Part shown: one piece after another, positions 18,561 through 50,583 of the stretch
How the letters are laid out: each line of letters opens with the position of its first letter
Position numbering within the stretch: the first letter of the stretch is position 1
NCBI GenBank assembly: GCA_029834535.1
Contig: JAQMWT010000268.1
Location: 116,745 to 180,744 of the forward strand
Origin: Chrysophaeum taylorii
Taxonomy: Eukaryota; Sar; Pelagophyceae; Pelagomonadales; Pelagomonadaceae
Length of the DNA stretch: 64,000 nt
Direction of reading: 5' to 3'
Notes under the pieces: generated by a model
What the model was told of the DNA's origin: nothing
Databases searched by the model: none
The model's input: the letters and a program-made list of their open reading frames with translations, nothing else
Position numbers and translations under genes: made by a program

Positions 18561-21500
18561 CTGGACTTCTATGCGTACAGGATCCAAGTGCGTGCCGACG
18601 ACAGCGCTGGCGGAGGAGAGAACGACATGGATGTCGATCAACGCAACCATCCAGCTCGCGAGTTCTCGGCCTTGCACCTCAGCAGGCTCCTCTTTCAGGA
18701 GTACCTCCTCGACGCGCACACGAAGGTGGAGGCCTCGCGCCTCGACTTTCTTCGTAACAACCAGCACCAACTCCGCGCCGATCTCTACCACGGACTCGAA
18801 GATGCGGTGGCGAGCGGCAACGAAAGAGATGCCGGCAAGTTTTTCCTTCTGCCGTCGTCGTTCAAGGGTGGGCCGCGCGAAATGCGGGCGGCGTACCAGG
18901 ATTCCATGGCCATAGTGCGCGAATACGGCAAGCCGGACTTCTTCATCACGTTCACGACCAACCCCAAGTGGGATGAGATCCAGCGCGAGCTCGAACCGAA
19001 CCAGAGCGCGAAGGACCGACCGGATTTGGTCTGTCGGGTGTTCCACATCAAGCTCAAGGAGCTCCTCTCGGACATCTTCGACAAGGGCGTTCTCGGCAAG
19101 GCCGTGGCGTACAGCTACTCGGTCGAGTATCAGAAACGAGGGCTCCCGCACGCGCACATCTTGCTGATTCTGGATCGCGACTCCAAGATATCGCCCGAGG
19201 ACATAGACAAGTACGTGTGCGCCGAGATCCCGGACCCTGCGACGCAGCCTGAACTCCACCGCATCGTCGTCAGCAACCTCATCCACAACCCGTGCTGTGA
19301 GCACGGCGACCGTCAAGCGTCGTGCATTAAGGACGGCATCTGCTCGAAGAGCTTCCCCAAGGATTGTAAGCCGCAGACCACGGTTCCAGAGGACGGGTAC
19401 GCGGTCTATCGGCGCCGCAGCCCCGAGCAGGGCGGCCGCACTGTTACGAAGCAAATCCGCGGCCGAGACGTCCCGCTGGATAACCGTTGGGTTGTCCCAT
19501 ACAACCCTGACCTCGCGAAGAAGTACGAGGCGCATACCAACGTCGAGTTTTGCGCCTCGATCAAATCGGTCAAGTACATCCACAAGTACGTCTACAAGGG
19601 CCACGACGAGGCGACCGTGTCCACCGAGACGCCCCAAGCGCGGGACGAGATCGACGAATTCGTCAACGGTCGGTACGTTTGCGCGACCGAGGCTGCCTGG
19701 CATTTTTCAGCGTCCGCACACGCCCTTCGTGTCGCAGCTCACGAGCTCACGACTATCCCTCGCAGGCGGCTCTACGGCTTCGAGACCCACGGTCATTATC
19801 CGCCGGTCGAGCGCCTCGCCGTGCACCTGGAAAATGGGCAGCGCATCGTTTGGGAGGATTCGGACGACCCTGTCGTAAGAGCGGAGCGGGCGCGAATCGC
19901 GGCCGCGGTGCCTCCGGAAACGACGTTGACGGCGTGGTTCAACATTAACCGCCACTACAAGAATCTCTGGCTCCACTCAGGGGGGGACCAGGATGTTTTC
20001 GACGAATCCCTCGCTCGCGGCGAACGGGATTCACGGAAATATTTTTACCACGAGATGCCGAAAAATTTTACCTTCGAGAAGACGGGGACGACAGCGACGT
20101 GGAAGCCTCGGAAGCAGGGCGACACCCGCCGCCGCGAGCGCCTCGGCTTGGACCTCGACGACTTCTCCTGCGACAAGGTCGCACGCGTCTACTCGGTGTC
20201 GCCCAAGGACCGCGAGTGCTTCTACTTGCGGATCCTGCTCTCACACGTCCAGGGCGCGACCTCATTCGAAGATCTGCGCGAGTTCGGAGGCATCGTCTAT
20301 CCAACGTATATTGCCGCCTGCCGCGCGCGAGGCCTCACACAAGACGACGACGAGTGGGACGAGTGCCTTCGCGAGGCCGCCAACTTTCTTATTGGGGCGT
20401 CGTTGCGACGGCTCTTCGCGACCATCCTCTCGACCTGCGAGCCCTCGGATCCGTTCGGGCTTTGGACGACGCACGCAGAGGCGCTCTGCGATGACATTCT
20501 CCACAGGCGTCGAATGAGCCACCAGAACCCGAACCTCCAGCTCAACGCCGAAATTGAGAACGAGGCGCTGCTCGATGTTGAGTCGATGCTCGACGCCGTC
20601 GGCTGCACGCTTCCGAACGAATTTCCCGAGCGACGACAGGTGGCGAACGTCACTTGCCGACAGGTCGTCGACGAGCTCATCTTCAGCGACTCGACCGAGA
20701 AAAGGCAGGCGCTGTGCAGCCAAGTCATCGCGAACGTCGCCAGCATGCGGCAAAGGAACCCAGACCAATTTCGGCTCTATGAGGAGATCTGTGGGGACAT
20801 CGACAGTGGTACCGGCCGAGTGTACTTCGTCGACGCGCCCGCCGGCACTGGAAAGACCTTCTTGAGCACGACGCTGCTCGCGTACGTCCGCAAGAGCCAA
20901 AACGTCGCGCTCGCGACTGCGGGCTCTGGGATCGCCGCTACGCTTCTTCCCGGCGGACGGACATCGCACTCGCGTTACAAAATTCCACTCGACCCCGACG
21001 AGTTGTCGTTCTGCAACATTACGCAGCGAGTACACGATCAGACGCGGGCCGTCATTGCCGAGGCCAACTTGCTGCTTTGGGACGAGGTTCCGATGACGAA
21101 CAAGCTCTGTTTCGAGGCCCTCGACCGCACGCTCCAGCGCGTGTTCGAGTGCGCCCAGCCGTTCGGTGGCAAGGTCGTTGTCTTTTTGGGCGACTTTCGC
21201 CAATGTCTGCCCGTCCTCAAGCACGCCCGCCAGTTCCAGATCGTGGACGCAACGCTGAAGAAGTCTCGACGGATTTGGCCCCACGTCCGCATCCGCTACC
21301 TTACGAAGAACATGCGCTTCGAGCTTTCGGGTGGCCTCGATGCCAGGCAGCTCGCTGAATTTTCCGACTTTCTCCTCAAGGTCGGAAACGGTTTGGTTCC
21401 TACTGTCCCGAGCTTGGGACGGGACTGGATCAAGATCGACGATTACGTTCGCTGCGTCGAGCGCGAGCCAGAGTTGATCCAAGCCGTCTACGGCGACCTC

Positions 21501-21839
21501 GCAGACAATTTCCAAGACCCGCGGTGGCTTTTCCAGCGCGCCATTCTTACGCCCCGAAACGATGTTGTCGATTCTGTCAACGCGCGCATGACCGCGGCCT
21601 TTCCCGGAGACGAGGCGACGGAGTTCTTTTCAGCCGACGAGGTTGGGAAGGACGACGACCCCTCGCTCTTTCCAGTCGAGTTTCTCAACTCCCTAACAAT
21701 CAACGGCATGCCGCCGCACAAGCTCGCGCTCAAAGTCGGCATGCCGGTGATGTTGCTTCGCAATCTCGACCCGTCGCACGGCCACTGCAACGGCACCCGA
21801 TACATCATCGAGCGTATCGTCTCGCCGAGGCTCCTCTAA
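18561..21839 (+). CDS. Helitron Rep (HUH) and Pif1-like helicase core
   Basis: The frame continues from the previous TAG and is open to a TAA at 21,837. The Helitron_like_N domain starts near FLLPSSFKGGPREMRAAYQD and GKPDFFITFTTNPKWDEI. The HUH motif is QKRGLPHAHILL (about 19,130-19,165). The two catalytic tyrosines are in KYIHKYVYKG (about 19,570-19,600). The helicase follows: VYFVDAPAGTGKTF (Walker A, about 20,830-20,860), ATAGSGIAATLLPGGRTSHS, LLLWDEVPMTNK (Walker B), VVVFLGDFRQCLPV, and NGMPPHKLALKVGMPVMLLR with NLDPSHGHCNGTRY. It nicks and joins the element ends and unwinds DNA during rolling-circle transposition. All catalytic residues visible are intact, yet the two in-frame stops would prevent a full product. 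Confidence 0.9.
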   Translation: MDFYAYRIQVRADDSAGGGENDMDVDQRNHPAREFSALHLSRLLFQEYLLDAHTKVEASRLDFLRNNQHQLRADLYHGLEDAVASGNERDAGKFFLLPSSFKGGPREMRAAYQDSMAIVREYGKPDFFITFTTNPKWDEIQRELEPNQSAKDRPDLVCRVFHIKLKELLSDIFDKGVLGKAVAYSYSVEYQKRGLPHAHILLILDRDSKISPEDIDKYVCAEIPDPATQPELHRIVVSNLIHNPCCEHGDRQASCIKDGICSKSFPKDCKPQTTVPEDGYAVYRRRSPEQGGRTVTKQIRGRDVPLDNRWVVPYNPDLAKKYEAHTNVEFCASIKSVKYIHKYVYKGHDEATVSTETPQARDEIDEFVNGRYVCATEAAWHFSASAHALRVAAHELTTIPRRRLYGFETHGHYPPVERLAVHLENGQRIVWEDSDDPVVRAERARIAAAVPPETTLTAWFNINRHYKNLWLHSGGDQDVFDESLARGERDSRKYFYHEMPKNFTFEKTGTTATWKPRKQGDTRRRERLGLDLDDFSCDKVARVYSVSPKDRECFYLRILLSHVQGATSFEDLREFGGIVYPTYIAACRARGLTQDDDEWDECLREAANFLIGASLRRLFATILSTCEPSDPFGLWTTHAEALCDDILHRRRMSHQNPNLQLNAEIENEALLDVESMLDAVGCTLPNEFPERRQVANVTCRQVVDELIFSDSTEKRQALCSQVIANVASMRQRNPDQFRLYEEICGDIDSGTGRVYFVDAPAGTGKTFLSTTLLAYVRKSQNVALATAGSGIAATLLPGGRTSHSRYKIPLDPDELSFCNITQRVHDQTRAVIAEANLLLWDEVPMTNKLCFEALDRTLQRVFECAQPFGGKVVVFLGDFRQCLPVLKHARQFQIVDATLKKSRRIWPHVRIRYLTKNMRFELSGGLDARQLAEFSDFLLKVGNGLVPTVPSLGRDWIKIDDYVRCVEREPELIQAVYGDLADNFQDPRWLFQRAILTPRNDVVDSVNARMTAAFPGDEATEFFSADEVGKDDDPSLFPVEFLNSLTINGMPPHKLALKVGMPVMLLRNLDPSHGHCNGTRYIIERIVSPRLL

Positions 21840-36986: not shown

Positions 36987-37874
36987 CAGCGGTGCCGTTA
37001 GAGAGGGTGTTCGTACCGTGCATAATAAAGGGCCACGATGAGGGTGGAGTTCTGCTTCTCGCGGGAGTAAAATCCCGCTCAAGTTCACACCAAGGCCCCG
37101 CCTTGTTGCGGGTGCCACGGCCACTTGTTCTTCTTCGCATTCGCCGCCTTCTCCTCCTTCTTGGCGTCCGCGTAGAGATCAAGGATTTTGGTACCGAAGG
37201 GCACGGCGAGGATCATGTACGTCAGCAGGTCCAGGCGCCTGTCGAGCTTGTTGAGCTCGTCCTTGAGCTCTTTGAGCTCGTCCTTGACCTCGTCGAAGCG
37301 CTTGTCGACCTCGTCCTTGAAATCGTCGAAGCGCGCGTAGACTTCCTTTCGAGAGGGCGGGAGCAATTCTTTGCGTTTCTCCTCCGCGAGCAGGCGTTCG
37401 TACTCGGCCTTTTGCCTGGCTGACTCGAACCCTTCGGCTTTGGACTCGAAAAATGACGTTTCGGAGATGGCGGCGGCGGCCTCCACACCCTGGACAGCCG
37501 ACACCGCCACGAGGCCCGCGATCACCATCGCGCTCGCCGTCTTCGCCGCGCCCTGGCGTACGAGAGGCGCACGACCGACACGAGGCTCGCGCGGTCCTCC
37601 TAGATCGACCGCGGAAGCTAAAGCGAGAGCTAGTAGTGCAACGACCCGCGTCATCGCGCACCTCCTGCCTGCCTACTGTACTACTGCCCCCTGCTTACCC
37701 TGAATCTATTGACCGCCGCCGACATACTATGTTTTGGCTTCTGGTCTGGGGACCCCTAATGATTGTCCTCCACCACCTGTGGCGTAAGGAGAATTTTTAG
37801 GGGCTACCTGGCGTGCCTTCGAATCCTGGCTCGCCGATCGCGTCCGTGCCCTTGGTGGGATCACTGGACGAGGA
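36987..37874 (-). repeat. Duplicated gene unit, copy 1
   Basis: A roughly 0.9-kb block from AGCGGTGCCGTTAGAGAGGG to TGGGATCACTGGACGAGGA holds the coiled-coil gene plus both flanks. Related blocks lie at 40,272-41,440 (with a MITE inside) and 47,085-47,848 (right flank truncated). A hairpin GCGGGA/TCCCGC with a 6-nt loop (37,061-37,078) is conserved in the 3' flank of all three. Confidence 0.85.
37085..37654 (-). CDS. Coiled-coil protein with bipartite leader, paralogue 1
   Basis: The protein has 189 residues. A signal peptide (MTRVVALLALALASAVDLGG) is followed by an Arg/Pro linker and a second hydrophobic stretch ending in small residues (TASAMVIAGLVAVSAVQGVE). That is the order seen in heterokont proteins routed to the plastid, possibly to the thylakoid. 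Next is a charged coiled coil with heptads (DEVDKRFDEVKDELKELKDE), then one hydrophobic segment (LLTYMILAVPFGTKILDLYA) and a Lys-rich tail. I recognise no family. This copy has one VDKRFDE heptad before KDELKEL and ends HPQQGGALV, unlike the other copies, which stop after HPQ. Confidence 0.75.
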   Translation of the reverse strand: MTRVVALLALALASAVDLGGPREPRVGRAPLVRQGAAKTASAMVIAGLVAVSAVQGVEAAAAISETSFFESKAEGFESARQKAEYERLLAEEKRKELLPPSRKEVYARFDDFKDEVDKRFDEVKDELKELKDELNKLDRRLDLLTYMILAVPFGTKILDLYADAKKEEKAANAKKNKWPWHPQQGGALV

Positions 37875-40271
37875 TAGGGTCGGATAAGGAACTCGGGGGT
37901 CCCGCGCCGGGGCCGAAAATCCCCAAGGATTGGCGGGCTTTTTTGTCCGTCGCCAAGTTGACCCAAAATGGTGCCGATTTTATCTTGGAACGAAGTCCGT
38001 AGCTGCCGATTTGGCGAATCTACTTGGGAGTGAGGTATTTTGGCGCCTCGGTGGAGGCGGGGGCCTAGGTGGCTCTACTCTGCACGACGCCATCGGCTCC
38101 AAATACAACAACCGGCGCATCGGGAATGTCCGTAGGCCCAATGAGGGTCGTGTGGGCGCTTAGACGGCGCCTTTTGTTCGCTGGGGCCAGTTCTAGTGTC
38201 CTCGTCTTTCCGGGCGTCCTCGGGAGACCGGCGTCGGGGCCCGCGAACGCAGCTATGCGTAGTCGTCGTCGTCGACGTCCATCGCGTCCTCCTCCTCCTC
38301 CTCGTCGTCGTCGTCGTCGTATTCGTTGTCCTCGGACACGAAGCGCCAGGAAGCCGGCTTGGAGCCGTTGAAGAAGGTGGGGCGGTTCGTGAGGAGCCAC
38401 CCGCTGAAACCGTCGTCATAGGAAACGAAGATCCAACCCAGCCCGAGTTTCTTGCGACCGTCCTTGGAGTTTTCGTCGGATACCGCCTCGATGGTGCCGG
38501 GCATCCAGTAGCAGCCCGGGTGCCCCGACAACTCCCAGAGAACCTCGACGCTTGACCCGACCAACGCCACGTCAATCGTCGGTACCTTCGAGCGGCCACT
38601 CGTCGACGTCACCGTATCCCACGGCGAGGGCGACGGCGGCCTCGTGAAGGACACCCATCTCGGAGCGCAGGTCGCGAATGAAGCGTGCGGACGGGAGCTC
38701 CATGTCGCGCACTCGCTCCGGGCCAACGACCGCCTCGACGACCGAGACCAGGACCTCGGGGATTTCCGCAGGCGCAACCCGCGAGGCGAGCAGTTTCATA
38801 CACAGCACCCTGAGCTTCGAGTCCCACGGAGTACCCTTGCCGGATCCCTTGCCGGACGGCTTCCGCGGTACCCACACTTCGGCGTTCTGCTTCTCGAGGA
38901 CCGCGACCCGCTCCCGCAGCCGCTCGATCTCCTCCTCCCGGGCCTGGACGCGGTCCTCGGCAGCCGCGAGCTTTATCTCCATTTGCTTCGCTTCCTGGTT
39001 GAGGGCGGCGTAATTGTTCTTGAGTTGTCGCATGGCCCGAGGGTCCGATTTCTTCAGTCGGTTCCTCTCCCGAAACTCGGCCGCCGCCGCAGCCTGTCTC
39101 GCCGCCTCGTTCGACTGGGCCTTGGTCGCGTTGAGCTCGTCGATGGCTCGCTGCAGCCTCGCGGCATCGCGGTCGCGCTGCTTCTCATTGGAGGCCTGGT
39201 GGCGTTCGATGCGGACCTGGAGCCGTGCCTCCCGACGTGCGGCATCCCGGACCTCGTCCTCGTACTTCCACTTGGCCTCGAGACGCGCCGCGTCTGCCTT
39301 GGCGGCCGCCATTTCCGCGGCGAAGGCGTCGGCGTGGGCTTCTTTCGTCTCGCGTTCGGCGGTGACAGAGCGAGAGTGCTGAGCCGTCTTGGCCGCCGTG
39401 AGCTTGTCGACCGTGCTCCGGAGTTTCGACACCTCCTTCTCGAGCTCCGAGATCCGCACATTCGAGTCCGACGACGACGACAGTGTGGAGATAACCGATG
39501 ACCCACTCGATCCAAGCGTCGGACGCGCTGGCCGTCCGGGTGGTAGTCGCCGAATCGGGGGTGTCGTTCTCCTTGTCGGGCTTGGCCTTGACGTGGGAGA
39601 ACGGGACGCGGATCTCTCCCTGCTGAATCGTTTTCACGTCGTATGACTCGACCCGACACACAGTGTTGTTGTAGATTAGGCCCAGGACAACGCCGTTGCC
39701 GCCCTGGATGTTGTGCCCCGCCGAGAAGTCGTGCTCGATGAGGACCTCGTCCCCGCTCCGGATGGTTGTCTTGAGAGTCCTAGTTAGCGACGCGGAGATC
39801 CGGGCGAGAACGGCCGTCGCGCCCTTCGTCGTGTGTAGCTTGCTCGGGGTGAAGTCGTCCCGGCACATTTTCGAGCACACGTAGAACTTGTCGGGCAGCT
39901 CGCCCTCGATATTCAGGAGTCGCTCCAGGTCGAGCGGCTGGCCCCTGGCCGTCTCGTCGGCGTCGAGCCTCGCTACGCAGCACACGCACTCTCCCCTCAA
40001 GAGGTTTTTTCGCCGTTGACGTTTGGCAGCGGGTTTTTTCGACACTTTCGTCAACTCAGCCGGGACCGAAGGGTCCACAGGGGTTACAGAAGGACCCGGG
40101 GCCGACTCTTTGCTCGTTTCGGCCGATTCCATGGGCGGAACGCCGATTTTGTGATTTTGCAGGCTATGTTTGAAACATAGCCTAAGACAATCCACTTTTG
40201 AATGAGGGTTTCTCGTTTGGTGTTCGAAATGTAGGCTAGGGCCTAGTTTTGAGCTTTCTTATCCGACCCTA
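37875..40271 (-). mobile_element. 2.4-kb TIR DNA transposon (relative of the MITEs)
   Basis: It starts TAGGGTCGGATAAG and ends CTTATCCGACCCTA, the same terminal repeats as the two MITEs. About 80 nt at the left end (CCCGCGCCG...GGCGGGCTTTTTT) also resemble the MITE interior. It carries a minus-strand coding region. Its flanks (CGAGGA left, GTTAGAG right) are not a target duplication. They come from different ends of the neighbouring gene unit, so the element sits at a rearrangement junction. Confidence 0.8.
38253..40132 (-). pseudogene. Transposon-encoded coiled-coil protein, frames broken
   Basis: Three overlapping frames follow in order. First (from ATG 40,132): a basic region, a Cys cluster (GECVCCVARL ... 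YVCSKMC) and a small SH3/Tudor-like stretch (SGDEVLIEHDFSAGHNIQGG). Second (about 39,510-38,572): a long coiled coil (ISELEKEVSKLRSTVDKL to EEEIERLRERVAVLEKQNAE) and a helical block, LRVLCMKLLASRVAPAEIPE with ELPSARFIRDLRSEMG. Third (about 38,620-38,253): a second SH3/Tudor-like stretch (VEVLWELSGHPGCYWMPGTI) and a very acidic tail. Coiled coil plus 'LL...V....ip.v...V' is reminiscent of some animal transposon proteins, but no catalytic DDE domain is visible, so it is probably an internally deleted copy. Confidence 0.45.
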
Positions 40272-40377
40272 GTTAGAGAGGGTGTTCGTACCGTGCATAA
40301 TAAAGGGGCACGATGAGGGTGGAGTTCTGCTTCTCGCGGGAGTAAAATCCCGCTCAAGTTCACACCAAGGCCCCGCC

Positions 40378-40950
40378 TTATTGCGGGTGCCACGGCCACT
40401 TGTTCTTCTTCGCATTCGCCGCCTTCTCCTCCTTCTTGGCGTCCGCGTAGAGATCAAGGATTTTGGTACTGAAGGGCACGGCGAGGATCATGTACGTCTG
40501 CAGGTCCAGGCGCCTGTCGACCTTGTTGAGCTCGTCCTTGAGCTCTTTGAGCTCGTCCTTGACCTCGTCGAAGCGCTTGTCGACCTCGTCGAAGCGCTTG
40601 TCGACCTCGTCCTTGAAATCGTCGAAGCGCGCGTAGACTTCCTTTCGAGAGGGCGGGAGCAGTTCTTTGCGTTTCTCCTCCGCGAGCAGGCGTTCGTACT
40701 CGGCCTTTTGCCTGGCTGACTCGAACCCTTCGGCTTTGGACTCGAAAAACGACGTTTCGGAGATGGCGGCGGCGGCCTCCACACCCTGGACAGCCGACAC
40801 CGCCACGAGGCCCGCGATCACCATCGCGCTCGCCGTCTTCGCCGCGCCCTGGCGTACGAGAGGCGCACGACCGACACGAGGCTCGCGCGGTCCTCCTAGA
40901 TCGACCGCGGAAGCTAAAGCGAGAGCTAGTAGTGCAACGACCCGCGTCAT
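40378..40950 (-). CDS. Coiled-coil protein with bipartite leader, paralogue 2
   Basis: The protein has 190 residues, nearly identical to paralogue 1 in the leader and in the hydrophobic segment. It has one extra VDKRFDE heptad in the coiled coil (a 21-bp in-frame duplication) and a NKVDRRLDLQTYM variant, and it ends at HPQ with a TAA. The preserved frame despite repeat-number change suggests selection or very recent copying. Confidence 0.75.
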   Translation of the reverse strand: MTRVVALLALALASAVDLGGPREPRVGRAPLVRQGAAKTASAMVIAGLVAVSAVQGVEAAAAISETSFFESKAEGFESARQKAEYERLLAEEKRKELLPPSRKEVYARFDDFKDEVDKRFDEVDKRFDEVKDELKELKDELNKVDRRLDLQTYMILAVPFSTKILDLYADAKKEEKAANAKKNKWPWHPQ

Positions 40951-41058
40951 CGCGCACCTCCTGCCTGCCTACTGTACTACTGCCCCCTGCTTACCCTGAA
41001 TCTATTGGCCGCCGCCGACATACTATGTTTTGGCTTCTGGTCTGGGGACCCCTAATGA

Positions 41059-41319
41059 TAGGGTCGGATAAGAAAACGAGACTAGCCCACGCCGAAACGA
41101 CGGGTCCTACAACGCGTGGGCTTTTTTCCTTTTTTTTGCGTAAGGGGACGAAAGGATGCCGACTTCACTATGGGGACTAGTTCCATCGCGACGATCTCGC
41201 GGCGTGGCGGCACATACTGCTTGAGTACAAATGAACATAGCTCAGCGATCCGTTGAGTATGTCTTAGCGCAAACTGAAACATAGTTAACGGCTCGTACGA
41301 ACTTTCTTATCCGACCCTA
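41059..41319. mobile_element. 261-bp MITE, second copy
   Basis: TAGGGTCGGATAAG...CTTATCCGACCCTA with target duplication CTAATGA at 41,052-41,058 and 41,320-41,326. The uninterrupted target is visible in copy 1 at about 37,757 (CCCTAATGATTGTCC), which proves the insertion. It is about 95% alike to the MITE at 34.8 kb. The outermost TIR base differs (T/A here, C/G there) but is paired in both. Confidence 0.95.
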
Positions 41320-41439
41320 CTAATGATTGTCCTCCACCACCTGTGGCGTAAGGAGAATTTTTAGGGGCTACCTGGCGTGCCTTCGAATCCTGGCTCGCCG
41401 ATCGCGTCCGTGCCCTTGGTGGGATCACTGGACGAGGAT

Positions 41440-41723
41440 GGCCGTTCTCCCGCCACGCGACCACAAACAACTCCCGCGCCTGGTCCTCTAACTTGAGGAC
41501 CGGCTGTTGCTTTATGATCAAGGATATATCGAAAATAGGAAATCAGGGTGACATGCGTCACGGAAAAGGAAGATGATGTCATAGAGAACACTGACATCAT
41601 CGGAACGGAGTAGGGTGCCCCTGATAAGGGGGGGGGCTAGAAGAGGGGTAAGCCTTAGGAGGCGGGAGTTGCCGCCACAGGACTCACTCCCCTGGTAAGA
41701 ATTCGAGCTGCCCCAGCGAGGTG
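41440..41723 (-). repeat. LTR-like region downstream of gypsy pol
   Basis: On the minus strand the pol stop is followed by CCAGGGGAGTGAGTCC, a likely polypurine tract, and then TGTGGCGGCAACTCCCGCCT from 41,679 downward. The start is similar to the LTR start at 631. The LTR's other end and a matching 5' LTR were not found; the right side of the element is cut at 46.82 kb. Confidence 0.5.
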
Positions 41724-43835
41724 CTAGCGCGAGGAGCGCGGCTTCGCCTTACGAGCATCTCGTGAACGAATCTTCTGGTAAACGCGGGTGATGATCGGTT
41801 CAGGAACTCGACCACTGCGTAAAGTAAACTTGGGTATCAACACATCAATCTCGTGCGGAGCGAAATCCGTGACACAAGGAGTTGTGTTGGAGGAAATTCG
41901 GGACTTGTCGGTGAAACTTCGACCTTCAACGTCCTTGAACTCGGGCTTGAGCTTGCGGTGCGAAAGGTGAGAGGTCGGTTTGAAATAAGCGACATCATCG
42001 TTCGGACCCAAATCAGAATAGAAATGTAGAGCAACACGATCATTTTGGTAATCGTAAGGCTCGTAAACTTCGGCAACATAAATCTTCTTGCGCCAATCAG
42101 AGCGCTTCCGGTCAGGAATCCGGAAAACAACAAACTTACCTTGCTGATAATCATCACGGAAGGTTTCTTCGGGTTTGCGGATGGTTTGATTAACGATCGG
42201 AGGTACCATCACCGGCGTGATCTGACTGACATGAGCCCGTCGTTCTTCGGGCGGAGAGTCGAGAGACTCAATCCTATAGGTGACCGGGGAAAGGCGTTCC
42301 TTGATAATAAACGGTCCTCGCCATTCCGGTCGAAGTTTGTTCTGAAGGAAAGGAATGTAGAGCAAAACGTGCGATCCTTCCTTGTATTCAACATCAACAT
42401 GATCAGCATTGTAGGCAAATCGTTGTTTCTTCAAAGCTTTATCACGAGCCTCGCGGACGATCTTTGTATAATATTTCAATCGCTCACGAGTTTCGGCAAC
42501 TGCATCAGAGCGAGTCTTCGGCAATAATCGTGTATCAAAATCCATGAGCGTGTAGTCAGTCGGTAGCATCGGCTGACGGTTCAGGCGCAGCATAAAGGGA
42601 GAAATCTGCGTGCCTGGAATAAACTTGCGGTTGTAGCAAAACGCAATATAATGAGCAAAGTCAGGCCAATCCGTGATGTTCCGGCCTTGAAGGCAAGCAC
42701 GGTGGAAGGCCTTGATAAATCGGCTGACACGCTCAGCCGGGTTCGACTGGGCATGATACGGAATCGTAGTTTGGTATCGTGTGTTGAAGAGATGGAAAAA
42801 CTAGCGCATCAACTTGTTCACGAACTCTTTACCGTTGTCGGTACGAATCATCTGGGGCAAGTAGCCCTTGAGAAGGATGTTAATGACAAAAGACTCGAGG
42901 ACAGACTCAGCAGTCTTATCGTTCAAAACATCCAGAATCAAGAAATGCGAGAACGGATCAAAAAATACTAGAAGATACGTCTCGGGACCAGCGCTGGGCA
43001 AGGGTCCAAATAAATCCATGCAAAGAACAGCACCATCACCGTCGTAGACGGGCTGCTGCAAGAGTCCAGCTCGTTTCGGCTCAGGCGTACGAGCTTTCTG
43101 GCAAACTAAGCATTCAGCAATGAAGACTCCAACTTCGTTCGACATGTGAGGCCACCAAAATCGTTCTTGGATAGCCTGGACGGTACTGTGACGTCCCATA
43201 TGACCACCGTTAACCGGAGTGTCATGATAGAGTCGAATAATGCGCTTGCGCAACGTAGCAGGTGCAACAATCATCGGGTGCGAATCAGCAGAAATGCGGT
43301 AAAGAACATCTTTAACGACTTCGAATCGTTTGTTCGCTCGGGAACGTCGCGGCGTCTGACCTTGGGCCATTCGGTAGCGAATATCCTCGCAAGTAGCATC
43401 AGATTCTTGCTCACGTGCGATCTCAGCGAGCGTCATATTATCGGGTATCTTATCGATATAATCTTTGTAAGCGGCTGCGTCCTTGAAGATCTGTGGCTCA
43501 TCACGCGCACGGTTCTTCCGACGTTGTCTCGTAGCGTGAGACGTAGCCAATTTCATCGGATCCTTTTCAGGGTCTTCGTCTTCGTCTTCCGGCAGTTCGG
43601 TCGTAATAAACGACATTATGAAGTGGCAGCCGGAGACGGGAACTCCTCGGTCATCAACAGGTCGGGGAAGCTCTTGGAACACTAAATACGCGTGGTTCAA
43701 AGGTTCTCCAAACTCGTCAGTCTCGATGACATGATCTATCGGATTGCGGGAGAGACAGTCAGGGATACTCATTCCCGGTGACTTTCCCGGCTTGTAACCA
43801 AGTTCAGGGTAAAATTGGCGAGGCGCATCGCCCAA
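41724..43835 (-). pseudogene. Gypsy integrase with in-frame TAG
   Basis: The frame begins near the end of RNase H (GYKPGKSPGMSIPDCLSRNP, the usual RH-IN junction). The H2C2 zinc region has H..H (YHDTPVNGGHMGRHS) and CLVCQKA. Catalytic residues are D in CMDLFGPLP, D in RTDNGKEF, and E in SNPAERVSRF. A TAG at 42,803-42,801 lies between the second D and the E; the same frame continues on both sides. The C-terminal half has WRGPFIIKERLSPVTYRI (GPY/F module) and a roughly 120-residue tail (YVAEVYEPYD, CVTDFAPHEIDVLI) that is also present in the left-edge element. There is no chromodomain that I can recognise. Confidence 0.8.
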
Positions 43836-44440
43836 CGAGCAAGCTGCCCAGACGAGTGCGTCGCCTTACGTAAAAACGTCAAATTTCGGTGATCGGTCTC
43901 CAAAACAGTACGGTGCCCTTCGATGTAGGCTCGAAAGTGCTCTAGAGAAAGTATAGCTGCCAACAGCTCTAGCCGACGGGGCTCATAATTCCGCATCTCC
44001 TTCGGCACAGCTCGGCTCCAGTATTCAATTACTCGTTCTTCTCGAGTCACTCTTCCGGCATCGTCCTTGACTTCGACAATCTGGAAGAGATATGCTCCAA
44101 GTCCATCCTTGGAAGCATCGGATCGGATCTGAAAAGGCAGATCATAATCGGCGTGGTAGACTCCACGGGAATCAACCAAAGCTTCAATAATCGTATCCCA
44201 AGCTTTCTGACACTCGGGCGTCCACTCGAACTTTACACCTTCGAGGCATAATCGTCTCAACGGTTCCACAATCTTCGAGTAGCCCTTCACATATCGCCGG
44301 CAGTAATTACTCATGCCGATGAAAGAGCGTATCTGGGTTTTCGGGGAAGTATTCGGTAAAGTACCTGGAATCGGCATCTTCTGCAGTGCTTCCAGCGTCT
44401 TCGGATTCGGCTTCAAGCCTTCTGGGGTAAAAAATGTGTC
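43769..44440 (-). pseudogene. Gypsy RT thumb and RNase H segment
   Basis: It starts in another frame than the RT: LKPNPKTLEALQKMPIP and IRSFIGMSNYCRRYVKGYSK are the RT thumb/connection. RNase H has IRSDASKDGLGAYLFQ (catalytic D), ELLAAILSLEHFRAYIEG (catalytic E) and VLETDHRNLTFLR (catalytic D). It ends out of frame with the integrase near 43,795. The frame change from the RT lies at a six-base A-run (plus strand 44,429-44,434). An indel in that run is the simplest cause. Confidence 0.8.
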
Positions 44441-46814
44441 CCGGAAATTCTATATCATCCTTGAGAAGGTGGAACTTCGCGGTTCGAAAGCTGTACCCTC
44501 TCTGTGCCAAATGACACATCACTTCGATCAAAACTTGTAAATGTCGATGAAGATCGTCGGATCCCATCATAATATCGTCAACAAACGCAACCAAGTCTTG
44601 ATACATCCACTTCGAAAGGTCGCTCGCCATTTGCTTGCAGAAGAGAGCTCCGGCCGTCTTCACCCCTAGAGGTAATCGCAAGAAACTATGAGCGCCAAGT
44701 GGGCTAACCATCGTGACAGCGTCCTGCGCTGCCGGATCCAGACGAAGGTTGTGGTATCCCCATCTAATATCAATGCATGTCCGCCATCGTCTCATCGCGA
44801 GAAAGGCTAAAGCATCATCTTGTCGAATGTTTGGCCAACTGTCATTGACCAATTGATCGTTGAGCTGACGTAAGTCAACTGCAGCACGGAACGCGTTTGA
44901 CGTTCCAATCTCAGCTCCTTTCTTCGGAAGCATCAACACAGGAAAGCCCCAAGGTGAGTTGGCCGGACGAATGACTCCATCCCGGCACCACTCGCTGATC
45001 TGCTTGCGGAGACAATCGAGTTTCGCAGGCGTCAATCGGTAGGGCGTCATCTTAATCGGTCGCGGATTCGCGTCTTTGAATCGTAGAGACACAGGAGGCG
45101 AGTCCACAGGTCTCATAATCGGGTCGAAAAAGGCCCAAGAATATTGCACACAGTGACGGAGCATCAATTTCGCCTCGTCATCTAAGTGCGGATTGTCAGG
45201 AATTCCCAGCTCCTGCACAACCTTGTCAACTTCTTCCTTCGTAGGAATTTGAACTTTCATCGCTTCGTTGTCCTTGACATGCTCAGGAGTCTGCGGCAGT
45301 GGTGCACCCTCGGCATCGCGCGGCGCATTTTTCCATGGCACATCGAACTTTTTCTCGTATTTTTGTTTCACTTCCGGGTGGCTTTTGTTGATCCTCTCGC
45401 CTTTGACACGAACACTCGGCTCGCTCTTAATGTTCGGTTCCTGATCTCGCTCAGGATTTGGCGGAACGTCTAAATTTGGTTGTCGGGGGGGGGCAGCAGA
45501 AGAAGCATGAGACGTCCCCGGCTCATCTGTTGCAGGCGGAATGAACGGTACCTCTGGAGGTTTCCATTTGGTGAGATCTTGAAGATCATCATTCGACACC
45601 CATCTTACGACACGTGTGCGCGTGTTTAACAGCGGAACTTGTACGTGACGAAGGGTGGTGTCATCAATTTGTAAAAAATAATCAAACGGTCGGTCTGCAG
45701 GACTCAACGCTGACGGCAAAGCTTCGCCGCTCAGGTGAAATTCCTTGGTCACAGAGTTGTGCAGATCGAGCATTAATAAGGCTATCGTGTCAGGTGGCAC
45801 GACGGACGCCAAGTGTTTCAACGAGGTCGTCTTGGATAAGCCGGCCCAATCAAAACCAGGGGGCATCGTCAGCAACTCCGAAGTCATTTTCATATTCAGA
45901 GGTCTGTAATCGGAACGGTGCGATCCTACGCGAAGCGGGACACGCGTAACGGTGTAAGCTGCGTCTGTCGCGGCTCGTGATGATCCTAAATTGTTCATCT
46001 GAAGTAAATGTCGTTCGTCGGCGTAGCCAAGTGCTGCGGCGAACTCTTGCTGCATATTCTTGCAAGTCTTTGGAACTGCGCGCAAATGGAGCGGATGGCT
46101 GGAAACCAACAATCGCACGCGACAGCTCATCAAACTGGGCGTTATGTCGTAAAAATTGACGACGTATACGTACGGGTGCAAACGTGCAACGTAAGAAATA
46201 ATCGAAGCCTCCTGCTCTATCAACCACATGAAGAAACCTGCCATCTTGCATAATTTCATCGTCCAGTGGGTAGCGGTAACTCCTTTCCCAACATCTCTGG
46301 AGGTCAAGTTGCACAGAGCGGAGTGTACGCAGGGTGGCGACGCGACACACATCGACGACGACCATTCCGCGTAGGGTAAATAGGATTCGATCAACCGCAA
46401 GGTTGTAACATAGCGACCACACAGTGTGTGCTGCACCACAGGAATATTCGTAAAGTTCTTGGGGTGGATCTGGTTGGCGGTGTCCGACGCATCGAGTGCT
46501 AGCACGACTCGAAACGACGTGCCACACGTTTCGTTGGCTCGTTGGAGACCTAAAGTAATGCCTCCGGCTCCACTGAACAGCATCACCACCTTGCGATAAG
46601 TGATTGGAAGCCATTGAACCTTTTCATATCGGCGGCGGATCTCCGCTTCGGTGATCTCGCGGCATTTCTTTTCATCTTCTTCCGACCTTCGAGCGAAATC
46701 GTTGCTGCCTTCAAGTCGTTTGAGGGTGGACTTGTCCGCCATAGCGGTCGTAGCGTCCTTCTGCACCGTGCTCAGCAACATCGGCGGTCTTGGGAGATCT
46801 TTAATCGTGCTCAA
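44307..46814 (-). CDS. C5-DNA methyltransferase domain fused to gypsy reverse transcriptase
   Basis: One frame of 835 residues with no ATG at its front; it is 5'-truncated. Methyltransferase: motif I VVMLFSGAGGITLG (76-89), motif II VLALDAS (104-110), motif IV ASPPCVHS with the catalytic Cys162, motif VIII MSCRVRLLV (229-237), then a recognition region. Motifs IX-X are ELLTMPPGFDWAGLSKT and LKHLASVVPPDTIALLM (313-348). Motif VI, normally ENV, reads YVVNFYD, so the catalytic Glu appears lost. After a linker with Pro/Glu/Lys, the RT has KMTPYRLTP, AAVDLRQLND, CIDIRWGYHNLRL (motif A), LPLGVKTAGALF (B) and LVAFVDDIMM (C, catalytic DD). Retrotransposon-borne cytosine methyltransferases have been described in a charophyte alga and in dinoflagellates. 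The branch to which this one belongs cannot be told here. Confidence 0.85.
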   Translation of the reverse strand: MSTIKDLPRPPMLLSTVQKDATTAMADKSTLKRLEGSNDFARRSEEDEKKCREITEAEIRRRYEKVQWLPITYRKVVMLFSGAGGITLGLQRANETCGTSFRVVLALDASDTANQIHPKNFTNIPVVQHTLCGRYVTTLRLIESYLPYAEWSSSMCVASPPCVHSALCNLTSRDVGKGVTATHWTMKLCKMAGFFMWLIEQEASIISYVARLHPYVYVVNFYDITPSLMSCRVRLLVSSHPLHLRAVPKTCKNMQQEFAAALGYADERHLLQMNNLGSSRAATDAAYTVTRVPLRVGSHRSDYRPLNMKMTSELLTMPPGFDWAGLSKTTSLKHLASVVPPDTIALLMLDLHNSVTKEFHLSGEALPSALSPADRPFDYFLQIDDTTLRHVQVPLLNTRTRVVRWVSNDDLQDLTKWKPPEVPFIPPATDEPGTSHASSAAPPRQPNLDVPPNPERDQEPNIKSEPSVRVKGERINKSHPEVKQKYEKKFDVPWKNAPRDAEGAPLPQTPEHVKDNEAMKVQIPTKEEVDKVVQELGIPDNPHLDDEAKLMLRHCVQYSWAFFDPIMRPVDSPPVSLRFKDANPRPIKMTPYRLTPAKLDCLRKQISEWCRDGVIRPANSPWGFPVLMLPKKGAEIGTSNAFRAAVDLRQLNDQLVNDSWPNIRQDDALAFLAMRRWRTCIDIRWGYHNLRLDPAAQDAVTMVSPLGAHSFLRLPLGVKTAGALFCKQMASDLSKWMYQDLVAFVDDIMMGSDDLHRHLQVLIEVMCHLAQRGYSFRTAKFHLLKDDIEFPGHIFYPRRLEAESEDAGSTAEDADSRYFTEYFPENPDTLFHRHE

Positions 46815-46825
46815 ACGAGCGTAAA

Positions 46826-47068
46826 CTGGGACCAGGTGAACATACTGGGGTTTTTAGAGTAAAGGGTTTTTAGAGTAAACTCAAAGGGTGGCGGCGCGTG
46901 CGGATCAAAGCAGCTTAGATTGGCGGAGGCGAGAGCGACGAGCTCAAAGGAGTTGGTGTGAGCTAGGTGAACTTACTGACCAGGTGAACTTATACGAAAC
47001 TTACTGGGACAAGGTGAACTTACTGGGGTTAGAGATTGGGACTAGGTGAACTTATGGGCCTGCACTTG
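46826..47068 (+). mobile_element. Helitron 3'-end fragment L
   Basis: Only the 3' 243 nt of a short Helitron (GGGACCAGGTGAACATACTG to GGGCCTGCACTTG), followed by T. It is directly abutted to the gypsy methyltransferase frame, so one deletion or recombination event removed both the front of the gypsy element and the 5' part of the Helitron. Confidence 0.8.
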
Positions 47069-47084
47069 TAATTATTATTTTACA

Positions 47085-47848
47085 GCGGTGCCGTTAGAGA
47101 GGGTGTTCGTACCGTGCATAATAAAGGGGCACGATGAGGGTGGAGTTCTGCTTCTCGCGGGAGTAAAATCCCGCTCAAGTTCACACCAAGGCCCCGCCTT
47201 ATTGCGGGTGCCACGGCCACTTGTTCTTCTTCGCATTCGCCGCCTTCTCCTCCTTCTTGGCGTCCGCGTAGAGATCAAGGATTTTGGTACTGAAGGGCAC
47301 GGCGAGGATCATGTACGTCAGCAGGTCCAGGCGCCTGTTGACCTCGTCGAAGCGCTTGTCGACCTCGTCGAAGCGCTTGTCGACCTCGTCCTTGAAATCG
47401 TCGAAGCGCGCGTAGACTTCCTTTCGAGAGGGCGGGAGCAGTTCTTTGCGTTTCTCCTCCGCGAGCAGGCGTTCGTACTCGGCCTTTTGCCTGGCTGACT
47501 CGAACCCTTCGGCTTTGGACTCGAAAAACGACGTTTCGGAGATGGCGGCGGCGGCCTCCACACCCTGGACAGCCGACACCGCCACGAGGCCCGCGATCAC
47601 CATCGCGCTCGCCGTCTTCGCCGCGCCCTGGCGTACGAGAGGCGCACGACCGACACGAGGCTCGCGCGGTCCCCCTAGATCGACCGCTGAAGCTAAAGCG
47701 AGAGCTAGTAGTGCAACGACCCGCGTCATCACGCACCTCCTGCCTGCCTACTGTACTACTACTGCCCCTTGCTTACCCTGAATCTATTGGCCGCCGCCGA
47801 CATACTATGTTTTGGCTTCTGCTGGTCTGGGGACCCCTAATGATTGTC
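47085..47848 (-). repeat. Duplicated gene unit, copy 3
   Basis: It begins ACAGCGGTGCCGTTAGAGAG, as copy 1 does after its Helitron neighbour, and ends at GGGGACCCCTAATGATTGTC, about 100 nt short of the copy 1 end. It also contains a small GCTGGTCTGG duplication near 47,820. Confidence 0.8.
47199..47729 (-). CDS. Coiled-coil protein with bipartite leader, paralogue 3
   Basis: The protein has 176 residues from the ATG at 47,729. The leader and hydrophobic segment are as in the other two copies. The coiled coil has two VDKRFDE heptads but lacks the KDELKELKDELNK block (FDEVDKRFDEVNRRLDLLTY). All changes are in frame. The three copies therefore differ mainly in heptad number. Confidence 0.75.
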   Translation of the reverse strand: MTRVVALLALALASAVDLGGPREPRVGRAPLVRQGAAKTASAMVIAGLVAVSAVQGVEAAAAISETSFFESKAEGFESARQKAEYERLLAEEKRKELLPPSRKEVYARFDDFKDEVDKRFDEVDKRFDEVNRRLDLLTYMILAVPFSTKILDLYADAKKEEKAANAKKNKWPWHPQ

Positions 47849-48240
47849 CGAGAATACATTGGCTTCAGATGCATTGAAATTGAGAACGTGTGAACGCGAA
47901 TTCGCCCTTACCCTACATTGAACCGTGTTGAAGTTCCGAGGAACGGAGAGAGAGTTGGGCAGACCTATGCCCAAGTCGGAGATCCTGCGAACGACTTGAG
48001 AACATTGGTTGCACGATATAATCTTTCTCGTTTTTTGACCCTGCGCGTCCTTCGGGAATGTGACGCGCGGACGATTCTCGCTCCGAGGTACTGCAACGGT
48101 TTAGGTTCGAAGGGTCAACCCGTTCTCTACGGACGCGGATACGAATACGGCCGGAATCTCAGACGGTTCGGTCAAAACGGGCTCTCTCCCGGAACGTATG
48201 GACCACTCGAAATCAGCCCCGTGCAAAGGAAGGCGTAGTC
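47849..48240 (+). other. Unassigned stretch with one ATG-less frame
   Basis: It starts GAGAATACATTGGCTTCAG right after the truncated gene unit. It contains GCGAATTCGCCCTTACC (47,895-47,911) and a 106-codon open frame (47,918-48,238; VGQTYAQVGDPANDLRTLVA, RYCNGLGSKGQPVLYG) without an ATG at its front. I recognise no family. Composition is lower in GC than the neighbours. Confidence 0.35.
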
Positions 48241-48411
48241 GACCGCCACGATGAGAGAAGGGAGAACCGCGAGGCCTCTCCAACGAGTGAGCGCCCAGGC
48301 AGGCTTCGTACGCCGGGCATAGGGAAAAAAGGGAGGGGGTAATAACGACGTGGGTGTCTGATGGGTGGAGCCCCGTCCGTCATCGGAGCAGGCCGGAGGT
48401 TGGTTGGTTGG

Positions 48412-48880
48412 TTAAAAACGAAGAAGGAAGCGAGCGGGGACAGGCGTTGGCCGCGTCGGCCGCGGGATCGAGGAGCTGCTGTTGGAGCTGGTGGTCGCGG
48501 ACCTCGAGCTCGCGGAGGTTGTAGCCGATGACGAGCTGCCACACATGCAGAGCTGGGCCATCGCCTGGCCGGACTGCTGAAGAACGACACCAGGTTCGAC
48601 GGTGGCGGCGTCCATCCCCCGCGTGATAGCGTACGCAAGCTTCTTCATGCCGTCCAAGACGTCGGGGGTGACGTCGTTGGTGAGCTCGCCCAACTGCTCC
48701 TGCGGCATGCTGCGGATGTAGGCGAGAAGGTCGCGTCTCGCCGTGGCCGTCTTCTCGGTGTCGACAAGCGCGAGTGCTCGTCGGAGTTCGGTGACCTCAT
48801 TCCTCTTGCTCGGCCATTCGAATCGACGAAGCTCAAGCCGCGGCGCGTCGTCGACATCTGGACCCACGACACATGAATAA
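48412..48880 (-). pseudogene. DUF760-like (plastid) protein, C-terminal frame change
   Basis: The frame has RRDLLAYIRSMPQEQLGELT, VTPDVLDGMKKLAYAITRGM and GQAMAQLCM. Then, in a different frame, it has WQLVIGYNLRELEVRDHQLQ and QQLLDPA. Together these are the pattern of DUF760 proteins (an 'L..Yi....pe.l..Lt..~s..V...M......', '..A.Ll.W..v.GY.LR..E.R..L' series), which in plants and algae are plastid proteins of unknown function. The frame changes at a CACA on the plus strand near 48,540 (two extra bases). No ATG is seen at the front. A GTCCAG acceptor just ahead (48,862-48,867) suggests that the 5' exon lies further right. Confidence 0.6.
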
Positions 48881-50583
48881 TTGAGATGAATGGGGATACG
48901 TGTAAACCTTTTGAGGAAGGCGTCTCAACCGCCCGCCATAACGTGGTTCGCGTAGTTGGAATAGTTCACCCCTTAGAGAACTCCTACTTTTAAAGAAAGA
49001 ACATCGTGTCTGTCGTCCGGCGGGCGGAGCCCGGCGGGGGCCGGGCGGTAGGGCTCCGGCTCAGCCCGGGTTTCCGCGAGTCGCCGGCCCACCCGCCCTC
49101 GGCCCACGCCGGGTGGGCGAGTGCTCGGCCGAGGCAACCAAAGCCTCTTACTACGCGACTGCGGGTAGCAAGGGCTCGGACAGGGGCTCGGACTCCGACG
49201 TGGGAAGACGCCGAGGGGAGCGCCGCGGCTCTGGAGCGGGCTTAGCCAGCATGCGACGCGGTGCGCACTGTGCTCGGAAGTTCTGGAAGTCCGAGGGATT
49301 CGACGCGTGTTTGAGCTCGCGCTCTCTCGAGCTCTGTTTCGGCGTCGTCTTACGGAGCGACTCTCCATCCGTTCGAAGATGCTGCGTTACCCTCTAGCGC
49401 TTCCGCTTCTAGCCCTTCTTGTCGATTTCCAGAACCTCTGTCAGCACATCAATGCCCAAATCTGGATATGCGGTCCCGAAACGGTCCTAGACCGTCGAGA
49501 GTCGCTCGGTACCGCGTTTTTGCCCGTCGTCCGCGTCAGCGACTCTAATTCTTTCTACGTGGCCATGGCAGCGAACCAGTTGAACATCCGATGAGCGCGG
49601 GTCTTGTCCTGGCTCTTCTTCAAGTTTGCTGGGATGCTGCCACCAAGCCCTGTTCTTCGTACGAGGAACTCCTGGGCGCGCTCGCGCCGCGATCGATTCG
49701 ACGACCGTCGCCGTTGGTGGTCCCCGCGTGGGTATAAGAAGAGCGCGAGGTCGCACTGGTGGAGCTTTTGAAGCCGGGCGATACGGAGCCGCAGCAGCAG
49801 GTGCGGGCGTATTGGCATTGTCCCCTGCAGCCTCTCCGCGCGAGCCGAGCCCGCCGCTACCCGTCGTCGCGCGCGCTCTCGATCCGTCGCTATTGATCGT
49901 CGCGGCCCCGGCGCCGCGGCCGGCGATCTGGTTGGCGACGGTGTGATGGTGTGCTCGCACCTGGGAGCCAGCCTCGGCAAGTGTCGGCCTTGGCGCGGGC
50001 CTAGACAATCTCCTCGACGGGCCAGAGGACGACAGCCTAATCCGCGAGTAGCGAAAACGATACGGACGATGAGGCAGATCCGGAGAAGCCACGCACATTT
50101 TTACTGCTACACAGAGGTACAGGGGTGACACGGGGTTGGGGGACTGAGCTGGATCCTCGCCAATGTCCGGACGAAGATCCCGCGCCGGACGTTCGTTTTC
50201 GCGCCCCGCCACCAGATGCTAGAGTCCGCGCGGGAGTCGCGGTCGAAGCAGGCGAAGAAGAGCCTGGTCTCCGCCGAGCCAATCGCCTTATACTTGACGG
50301 AGGAGAAGAAGGTCATGACGAAGCCGAGTAGTGTTGGTCACGCACGGGGCCAACGCGGAGCCGCTGGCCCGCTGATCTGCAAGGCTAGGTGTGCACAAAA
50401 CTAGACTTCGACGACAAACATTAGCGTGAATTTTGCGAGCGTCCACGGGCTCGATCTCCCTACTTGCATACACGGACTCATGCATGCATGAATGCCGGTC
50501 ACCTCCCATCCCATCCCATCCCATCCCATCCATCCATCGCGCTAGGCGGACGTCGCTCCTCTGCCCGCGCGTCGAGCACAACG
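48881..50583 (-). other. Region with possible unidentified minus-strand exons
   Basis: The best candidate start is the ATG at 50,316 (minus): MTFFSSVKYKAIGSAETRLF, DRDSRADSSIWWRGAKTNVR, RGIFVRTLARIQLS, open to 50,107. It then perhaps splices into Arg/Ser/Pro-rich frames to 49,555. I recognise no domain. The part from 48,970 to 49,560 is GC-rich with no convincing frame. A CCATC pentamer run lies at 50,505-50,540. Confidence 0.3.

Follow-up and report, generated by a model that had tools for sequence, protein, structure and literature searches.

A divergent cytosine-C5 methyltransferase joined to the reverse transcriptase of a high-copy Ty3/gypsy retrotransposon family in Chrysophaeum taylorii

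The 64,000-nucleotide stretch of Chrysophaeum taylorii DNA analyzed here (the window; contig JAQMWT010000268.1, positions 116,745 to 180,744) carries on its minus strand a retrotransposon remnant in which a divergent C5-cytosine methyltransferase (MTase) precedes a Ty3/gypsy reverse transcriptase (RT) in a single frame. On sequence evidence, the element belongs to a high-copy family of Ty3/gypsy long terminal repeat (LTR) retrotransposons (Metaviridae). Sequence comparison likewise establishes the fusion itself, the LTRs, the polyprotein order in copies elsewhere, purifying selection on the MTase, the invariance of its catalytic residues, and an RT clade with the MTase to which elements from other sources also belong. 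We favor the reading, with a probability of roughly 0.55 for the whole of it, that this is a Ty3/gypsy family whose Gag-Pol MTase was captured once and would methylate the element's own DNA copy.

The fusion frame occupies positions 44307 to 46814 of the window (minus strand, as are all parts of the element given below) and counts 835 codons from its first TTG, or 848 from stop to stop, running from the MTase through a linker to the RT; frame 1 of the plus strand across 44307 to 46825 contains many stops. The initial annotation of the stretch, which named no strand, had proposed an MTase-RT fusion in one uninterrupted frame, and this is borne out. In the 835-residue window protein (P0001), the MTase domain extends over residues 71 to 345 (45780 to 46604), as delimited by a family profile that contains close copies and supported by PF00145 and by profile comparison with PDB, and the RT (Pfam RVT_1, E 8.9e-13) over residues 630 to 794 (44433 to 44927, with FVDD at 44574 to 44585). 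The MTase includes motif I (FSGAGG, binding S-adenosylmethionine, or SAM; 46560 to 46577), motif IV (SPPC, with the catalytic Cys; 46329 to 46340), motif VI (LIEQE, with Glu kept and ENV replaced; 46209 to 46223), motif VIII (CRVR, with Arg-x-Arg; 46113 to 46124), and a motif X-like SVVPPD that replaces GN-x-VP (45789 to 45806). Motifs I, II, IV, VIII, and X stand where they had originally been placed, and motif VI, which had not been listed, deviates.

The diagnostic Ty3/gypsy order, i.e., RVT_1 RT, gypsy-type RNase H, and integrase (H2C2, rve), is present. The RNase H (PF17917/PF17919) lies at 43811 to 44224, in a frame shifted relative to the RT, and is followed by the H2C2 zinc finger and rve core of the integrase (42813 to 43262), an in-frame stop at the boundary between the integrase core and its C-terminal part (42801 to 42803), the C-terminal part itself (41727 to 42800, placed by polyprotein mapping, with Pfam matches below cut-offs), and a 3′ LTR (TGTGGCGG...TTACGCCACA, 41342 to 41679) homologous to the 336-bp LTR of a copy on contig C5. 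Mapping of a fuller copy's polyprotein on the window placed MTase and RT at 46832 to 44412 in a single frame, RNase H at 44428 to 43799 in a different one, and integrase at 43817 to 41727 in the MTase/RT frame again, a total of two frame changes and one stop in pol. At the remnant's 5′ edge (46788 to 46853), 46787 is the last position at which the nucleotide sequence is homologous to that of nine other copies; a pol query aligns with the window copy only from query residue 490 onward, and a gag query found no match at E ≤ 0.01 in window positions 39000 to 50000. The copy has a 3′ LTR only, its 5′ end being absent. With homology ending at 46787, no gag match, and the frameshifts, its sequence identifies it as a 5′-truncated, frameshifted, decayed remnant that has lost gag and protease. 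Broken in this way, it is unlikely to function autonomously.

Searching the 70.8-Mb genome with the 835-residue protein returned at least 57 matching places (identity up to 95%, the window copy itself excluded; longest frame 3067 codons), and at 40 of the 57 listed the match spans both MTase and RT. The fusion is therefore not a chance arrangement, and an artifact at the MTase-RT junction was rejected. The MTase alone matched at least 133 scored places drawn from 1000 first-look candidates, with 80 to 100% identity. At one of these (G000:C6:161813-162694) the window copy is matched with 100% identity over an MTase stretch of 294 residues, which points to a duplication of recent date or to another haplotype.

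A fuller copy, the initial annotation having suggested a search for full-length ones, was found on contig C5, where it was read in three pieces. One frame of 3063 codons encodes in it a gag-like region, a retropepsin-like domain, what we take to be a beta domain (after the protease and before the MTase), MTase, RT, RNase H, and integrase. Its LTRs (TGTGGCGG...CGCCACA, with TG...CA ends) measure 336 bp and are 98.2% identical across 341 columns, and a primer-site-like stretch starting with TGG comes after the 5′ LTR; inspection by eye revealed no matching 4- to 6-bp target-site duplication around the copy. The gag-like region of the fuller copy had no Pfam match at E ≤ 1, nor did the protease-like stretch upstream of the MTase in P0003, the protein of a longer copy, match Pfam; the retropepsin-like domain is recognized only from an alignment that sets VDGMADVSYI opposite VDTGACRSFI of a related protein, P0015. 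The lack of gag and protease, first taken as a possible trait of the family, is a trait of the decayed copy: other copies carry gag-like and retropepsin-like parts farther upstream within one frame, and on these a family devoid of them was rejected.

Identification of the MTase does not depend on Pfam alone. The RT was found by its hidden Markov model; PF00145 recognized the window copy only at threshold (22.1 bits against a cut-off of 22), the match covering the motif I/II region alone (residues 75 to 130, profile positions 2 to 51 of 324). The score for P0003 was 19.8 bits, below the cut-off, and five of the nine members of the element alignment matched at E ≤ 0.1; NCBIfam dcm gave 15.5 bits against a cut-off of 100.65, with two of the nine members at E ≤ 0.1. 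Because the PF00145 match is so weak, the assignment was tested by other means, i.e., by profile comparison with PDB and through a divergent relative in the same genome (L046). A profile of six MTase-domain sequences (the window copy plus five distant relatives) had 15 PDB matches at E ≤ 1 (best E 0.0024), every one of them named as a cytosine-C5 methyltransferase and several of the matched stretches spanning motif I to motif VI; no DNMT3 entry was among these 15. L046 (G000:C311:15600-16800) scores 34 bits with PF00145 and E 2.6e-82 with the family profile, and shares 37% of 394 aligned positions with the window family. A gypsy RNase H match follows 1.2 kb downstream, in an open frame of 2115 codons, and L046 accordingly probably represents a second gypsy subfamily. 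By these sequence criteria, the PDB profile matches more than PF00145, the element domain is a divergent C5-MTase. In an alignment of P0003 with eight relatives (P0004, P0005, P0006, P0008, P0009, P0013, P0014, and P0015), residues C656, E694, R726, R728, T782, and T784 (P0003 numbering), which include the catalytic Cys, the motif VI Glu, and both Arg of motif VIII, are invariant in all nine element MTases.

Those relatives were reached through the RT. A query covering RT, RNase H, and integrase retrieved 115 proteins at E ≤ 0.001, eight of which, namely, those just listed, align by blastp with the MTase region of P0003 (weakest E 6e-8), the alignment extending into the RT for P0005 and P0006. 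P0007, which carries the taxid 284809 (Chrysocystis, a pelagophyte) and is not part of the MTase profile, matches the C-terminal part of that profile (E 3.9e-17), bringing the MTase-bearing relatives to nine of 115. P0004 is an MMETSP transcript, and the other seven blastp-matched relatives are encoded on contigs 6.6 to 10.9 kb long from ENA, JGI, or LGN. With the MTase regions themselves as queries, none of 5005 candidates was matched at E ≤ 0.001 by the gypsy MTase of P0003 and none of 3864 by the MTase of a copia family described below; these searches say little, because the gypsy one missed the relatives later found through the RT. There was no relative among 27 pattern matches in viral contigs.

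An RT-RNase H tree was built from 107 of 116 rows, nine having been dropped because their RT stretch was too short or too long (including P0011, P0012, and the MTase-bearing P0015). In it, the nine MTase-bearing rows, P0003 among them, form a clade together with P0010, with a Shimodaira-Hasegawa-like approximate likelihood ratio (SH-aLRT) support of 100; the P0010 record begins within the RT, so that an MTase region would not be visible. A more careful RT tree of 35 of 36 rows, with L047 added and P0017 dropped, recovered the clade with 100/100 support. Nine of its 11 rows carry the MTase, the others being the cut-off P0010 and L045/L047, a locus of the same genome (G000:C335:26200-28990) that has a protease-like domain and passes from the beta domain to the RT with no MTase between. 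Over 492 RT-RNase H residues, L045/L047 shares 62% identity with P0003, and it is the nearest sampled RT relative outside the window's own family. An RT relative without the MTase, which had been named beforehand as telling against the fusion, does therefore occur, once; since it is nested inside the MTase clade as sister to P0003 (96/94), we read it as a loss of the MTase, and the fusion stands. The clade is best read, on the basis of these trees, as one old MTase capture followed by one loss, and the relatives elsewhere suggest an ancient capture of the MTase, which has since been retained in most cases. Pairs in the MTase tree match those of the RT trees (P0013 with P0014, 100/100; P0005 with P0006, 100/99; P0008 with P0009, 92/96), the deeper order not being resolved, and it appears that the MTase family and its gypsy lineage diversified side by side. 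The separate lineage that the initial annotation had envisaged is accordingly upheld as an RT clade, not as one defined by missing gag and protease.

Three proteins from public contigs carry other additions. P0090, which falls in another RT clade, has a gypsy-type RT-RNase H followed by an MTase-like stretch and then the integrase, i.e., it differs from the window family in having this stretch between RNase H and integrase. The stretch was recognized by eye and from the JGI name "site-specific DNA-cytosine methylase/transposase InsO"; PF00145 gave no match in P0090 at E ≤ 0.01 and the element MTase profile none at E ≤ 10. P0090 is possibly a further independent MTase capture. P0024 is a gypsy polyprotein with a SET histone-methyltransferase domain after the integrase, and P0039 a gypsy polyprotein with a SET domain according to a precomputed label only.

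The MTase of the gypsy family shows the signature of a maintained protein. Among ten copies including that of the window, the ratio of nonsynonymous to synonymous polymorphism (pN/pS) is 0.20 for the MTase and 0.14 for the RT, compared with 0.45 before the MTase, 0.58 after it, and 0.28 in the linker; without the window copy, the values for MTase and RT are 0.18 and 0.08. Between subfamilies, the corresponding ratio of substitution rates (dN/dS) for the MTase is 0.047, with synonymous sites near saturation (pS 0.72). These patterns argue for purifying selection that kept the MTase throughout the family's spread.

The same genome harbors a second retrotransposon family with an MTase. An exon-by-exon PF00145 search, in which 123 of 474 candidates were scored, gave at least 57 matches, and 26 of 57 were compared further: one is a DNMT2-like gene (L001), one a DNMT5-type gene with PF00145 and SNF2 in one frame (L002/L044), and 24 are copies of a high-copy Ty1/copia family with its own C5-MTase. 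The copia loci comprise 20 picked for their long open frames (L009-L028) and four more from L003-L008, where L004 and L006 duplicate two loci from the set of 20; L016 is included through a 67-residue fragment only. A single Ty1/copia polyprotein has sequence in common with all 24. The longest frame of the family (P0002) matches RVT_2 with 133 bits, the MTase family with 32 bits, and rve with 17 bits, the last below its Pfam cut-off. Its MTase follows a DGGAS protease-like motif and precedes the integrase, has PCQ and ENV together with a degenerate motif I, and shows a dN/dS of 0.137 over seven copies. Homology between the gypsy and copia MTases was not detectable by hhalign (probability 0.5%, E 0.12, with shallow profiles). 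On those values a single capture shared by both was rejected, and sequence points to the copia MTase as a second, apparently independent capture in this genome. As to the host genes, which belong to the same C5-MTase superfamily, the element MTase profile matches L001 and L002/L044 with E values of only 0.8 and 0.24, respectively, and hence no recent capture from either is visible. DNMT5 is a maintenance-type methyltransferase. A chlorophyll-binding-protein gene adjoins the DNMT2-like gene, and its presence marks the host as a photosynthetic alga; the fucoxanthin-type look of that protein, together with the relatives of the element, would suit an ochrophyte, perhaps a pelagophyte.

In the mechanism that we favor, a single capture, dating to the base of the clade or close to it, would have brought in the MTase, which lies in Gag-Pol between the post-protease beta domain and the RT and would have been coinherited with the RT and lost at least once. 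It would be made within Gag-Pol and packaged alongside the RT in the particle, where it could methylate the C5 position of cytosines in the DNA copy of the element itself, either while reverse transcription proceeds or once it is over. New insertions would thereby arrive already methylated, and the host DNMT5-type gene, with its MTase and SNF2 parts, could maintain the marks set by the element. By way of benefit, the element might escape sensing of unmethylated DNA, be shielded against deaminases or nucleases, or be expressed at a tempered level. Methylation of the element's own DNA is favored because the MTase adjoins the RT in Pol, its catalytic residues are invariant, it is under selection, and related systems include MTases that act on CG in yeast. 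A wider version, in which a deep, single-origin gypsy MTase lineage and an independent copia capture would make retroelements de novo writers of 5-methylcytosine, acting on complementary DNA before integration, is held only tentatively and inclines to the doubtful; within it, the DNMT5-type gene would be the only DNA-methylation gene of the host recognized so far, among the 26 of 57 PF00145 matches compared.

Several observations weigh against own-DNA methylation. Both the activity of the MTase and its target are predictions. The motif VI Glu is followed by Gln in seven of ten aligned rows and by Arg in one, ENV being kept in only two (P0013 and P0014, as LENV), and the Pro that precedes the catalytic Cys varies (SPPC, SPSC, SVDC, SNSC, and TPDC); the window copy lacks both the canonical ENV and GN-x-VP (ASVVPP instead). 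Given the deviant motif VI and the variable Pro of motif IV, activity or substrate may differ from those of standard DNA MTases. AlphaFold2 models of both MTases have a mean predicted local distance difference test score (pLDDT) of 30. L045/L047 does without the domain. The ten gypsy copies show no excess of CG to TG/CA changes: the CG/non-CG ratio is 0.89 for C>T-type changes versus 1.08 for transversions, on which a CpG-decay footprint was rejected, and the CpG observed/expected ratio is 1.16 to 1.24. (The corresponding values are 1.20 and 0.63 for the copia copies, a modest excess at CG in relative terms, and 0.81 and 0.73 for a noncoding repeat of the window.) Lastly, the MTase domain of KnitGypsy-Dnmt3, a Gypsy element of Klebsormidium nitens, produced no methylation in yeast, a result that its authors call inconclusive (de Mendoza et al. 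2018, PMC5890265).

Some of these points would also fit an MTase that kept its fold and SAM pocket while catalysis was lost or changed, the domain persisting as a nucleic acid-binding or structural part of Pol. The replacement of ENV in eight of ten rows, the Pro of motif IV not conserved among relatives, the mere 22.1 bits of the window copy with PF00145, and a relative that dispenses with the domain all agree with that explanation, which we nevertheless consider unlikely, given that the catalytic Cys, the Glu, and Arg-x-Arg are invariant in nine of nine sequences, that LENV is kept in two distant members, and that the MTase is under purifying selection. Still less probable is a DNMT2-like enzyme that methylates RNA (the element's own or its primer tRNA) instead of DNA. 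Such a role was raised for a LINE-encoded enzyme in PMC5890265, the gypsy copies have no CpG footprint, and the two best PDB matches of a close-copy profile are DNMT2 proteins, with an E value of 0.2 only; once distant members are in the profile, the cytosine-specific methyltransferase 3g7u and DNMT1 entries outrank those of DNMT2, and the sequences hold no direct evidence for RNA as a substrate. Action directed outward, with the element MTase modifying host DNA or chromatin as the genome's de novo writer, is improbable. Its high copy number would suit such a task, and the PF00145 matches compared comprise two host-type genes beside the 24 copia copies, but a host DNMT3 could have been missed at this coverage (123 of 474 candidates scored, 26 of 57 matches compared). 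A fortuitous fusion, be it a host MTase gene lying beside a retroelement or an assembly artifact, merits practically no credence despite the repeat-rich window and a copy truncated at 46787, since MTase and RT are joined in the same order at 40 of the 57 listed places, making a chimera unlikely, and also in elements from other sources.

Elsewhere in the window, direct repeats of about 0.78 kb, 93 to 96% identical, lie at 36997 to 37763, 40272 to 41059, and 47093 to 47849. The remnant lies between two of the three, and an LTR end (37766 to 37875) comes after the first. The same 12 bases come after the 3′ LTR (41330 to 41341) and after this LTR fragment near 37.8 kb (37766 to 37777), as they do after the 5′ LTR of the C5 copy. 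A repeat of about 1 kb occurs in at least eight places between 9181 and 62717, in both orientations and mostly with 86 to 98% identity, and a Helitron protein with Helitron_like_N and a PIF1 helicase is encoded on the plus strand at 18561 to 21836. An Rfam scan of the window returned no match at gathering thresholds.

Cytosine methylation is a common means of silencing retrotransposons, which makes elements that encode a methylating enzyme paradoxical. MTase-bearing Gypsy elements are already on record, and a C5-MTase inside the Ty3/gypsy pol frame of a photosynthetic alga is, as initially proposed, a capture of the kind known from a charophyte and from dinoflagellates. PMC5890265 describes separate captures in these groups. 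KnitGypsy-Dnmt3 resembles the window family in being an LTR Gypsy element with a C5-MTase within the Pol frame, multiple copies, and purifying selection (Ka/Ks below 0.2 for its MTase). Going by that published description, not by sequence comparison, it is set apart by an MTase that groups with Dnmt3 and conserves the key residues, whereas that of the window family is barely detected by PF00145, and by repeats that a figure legend calls DIRS-like, as opposed to the ordinary direct LTRs of the C5 copy (PMC5890265). SymbioDIRS-Dnmt3 and SymbioLINE-Dnmt of Symbiodinium are also retrotransposon-encoded DNMTs, but of DIRS (tyrosine-recombinase) and LINE elements; some element-encoded DNMTs (SymbioDIRS-Dnmt3) methylate CG de novo in yeast (PMC5890265).

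The host group may not be new either, since DAM- or DCM-encoding Ty3/Gypsy and DIRS elements are stated for Stramenopiles, among others, in passages of PMC6338049 that combine adenine and cytosine methylases and name no elements, so that inclusion of the window family cannot be told. Among the literature matches listed, none presents, by title or start of abstract, a cytosine-MTase LTR element of an ochrophyte, with the proviso that the review of Iyer et al. 2011, to which PMC5890265 refers for links between MTase and RT, may hold such a case; nor was a divergent MTase family that diversified with one gypsy clade, with a loss inside it and a separate copia family, found among them. DNMT3 in LTR Copia and DIRS elements is mentioned for streptophytes and dinoflagellates in PMC12344493. 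The Ty1/copia family found here likewise has a C5-MTase in an LTR polyprotein, where it comes after a protease-like motif and before the next enzyme, and differs in its integrase before RVT_2, its retained PCQ and ENV, and its degenerate motif I. From these comparisons, the window element is of a known kind, an MTase-bearing Gypsy, to which the present data would apparently add a divergent MTase family that codiversified with its lineage, its likely loss in one branch, and a copia capture alongside. Since one host contains sister families with and without the MTase, L045/L047 being the natural comparison that lacks it, the benefit of the MTase to the element becomes testable.

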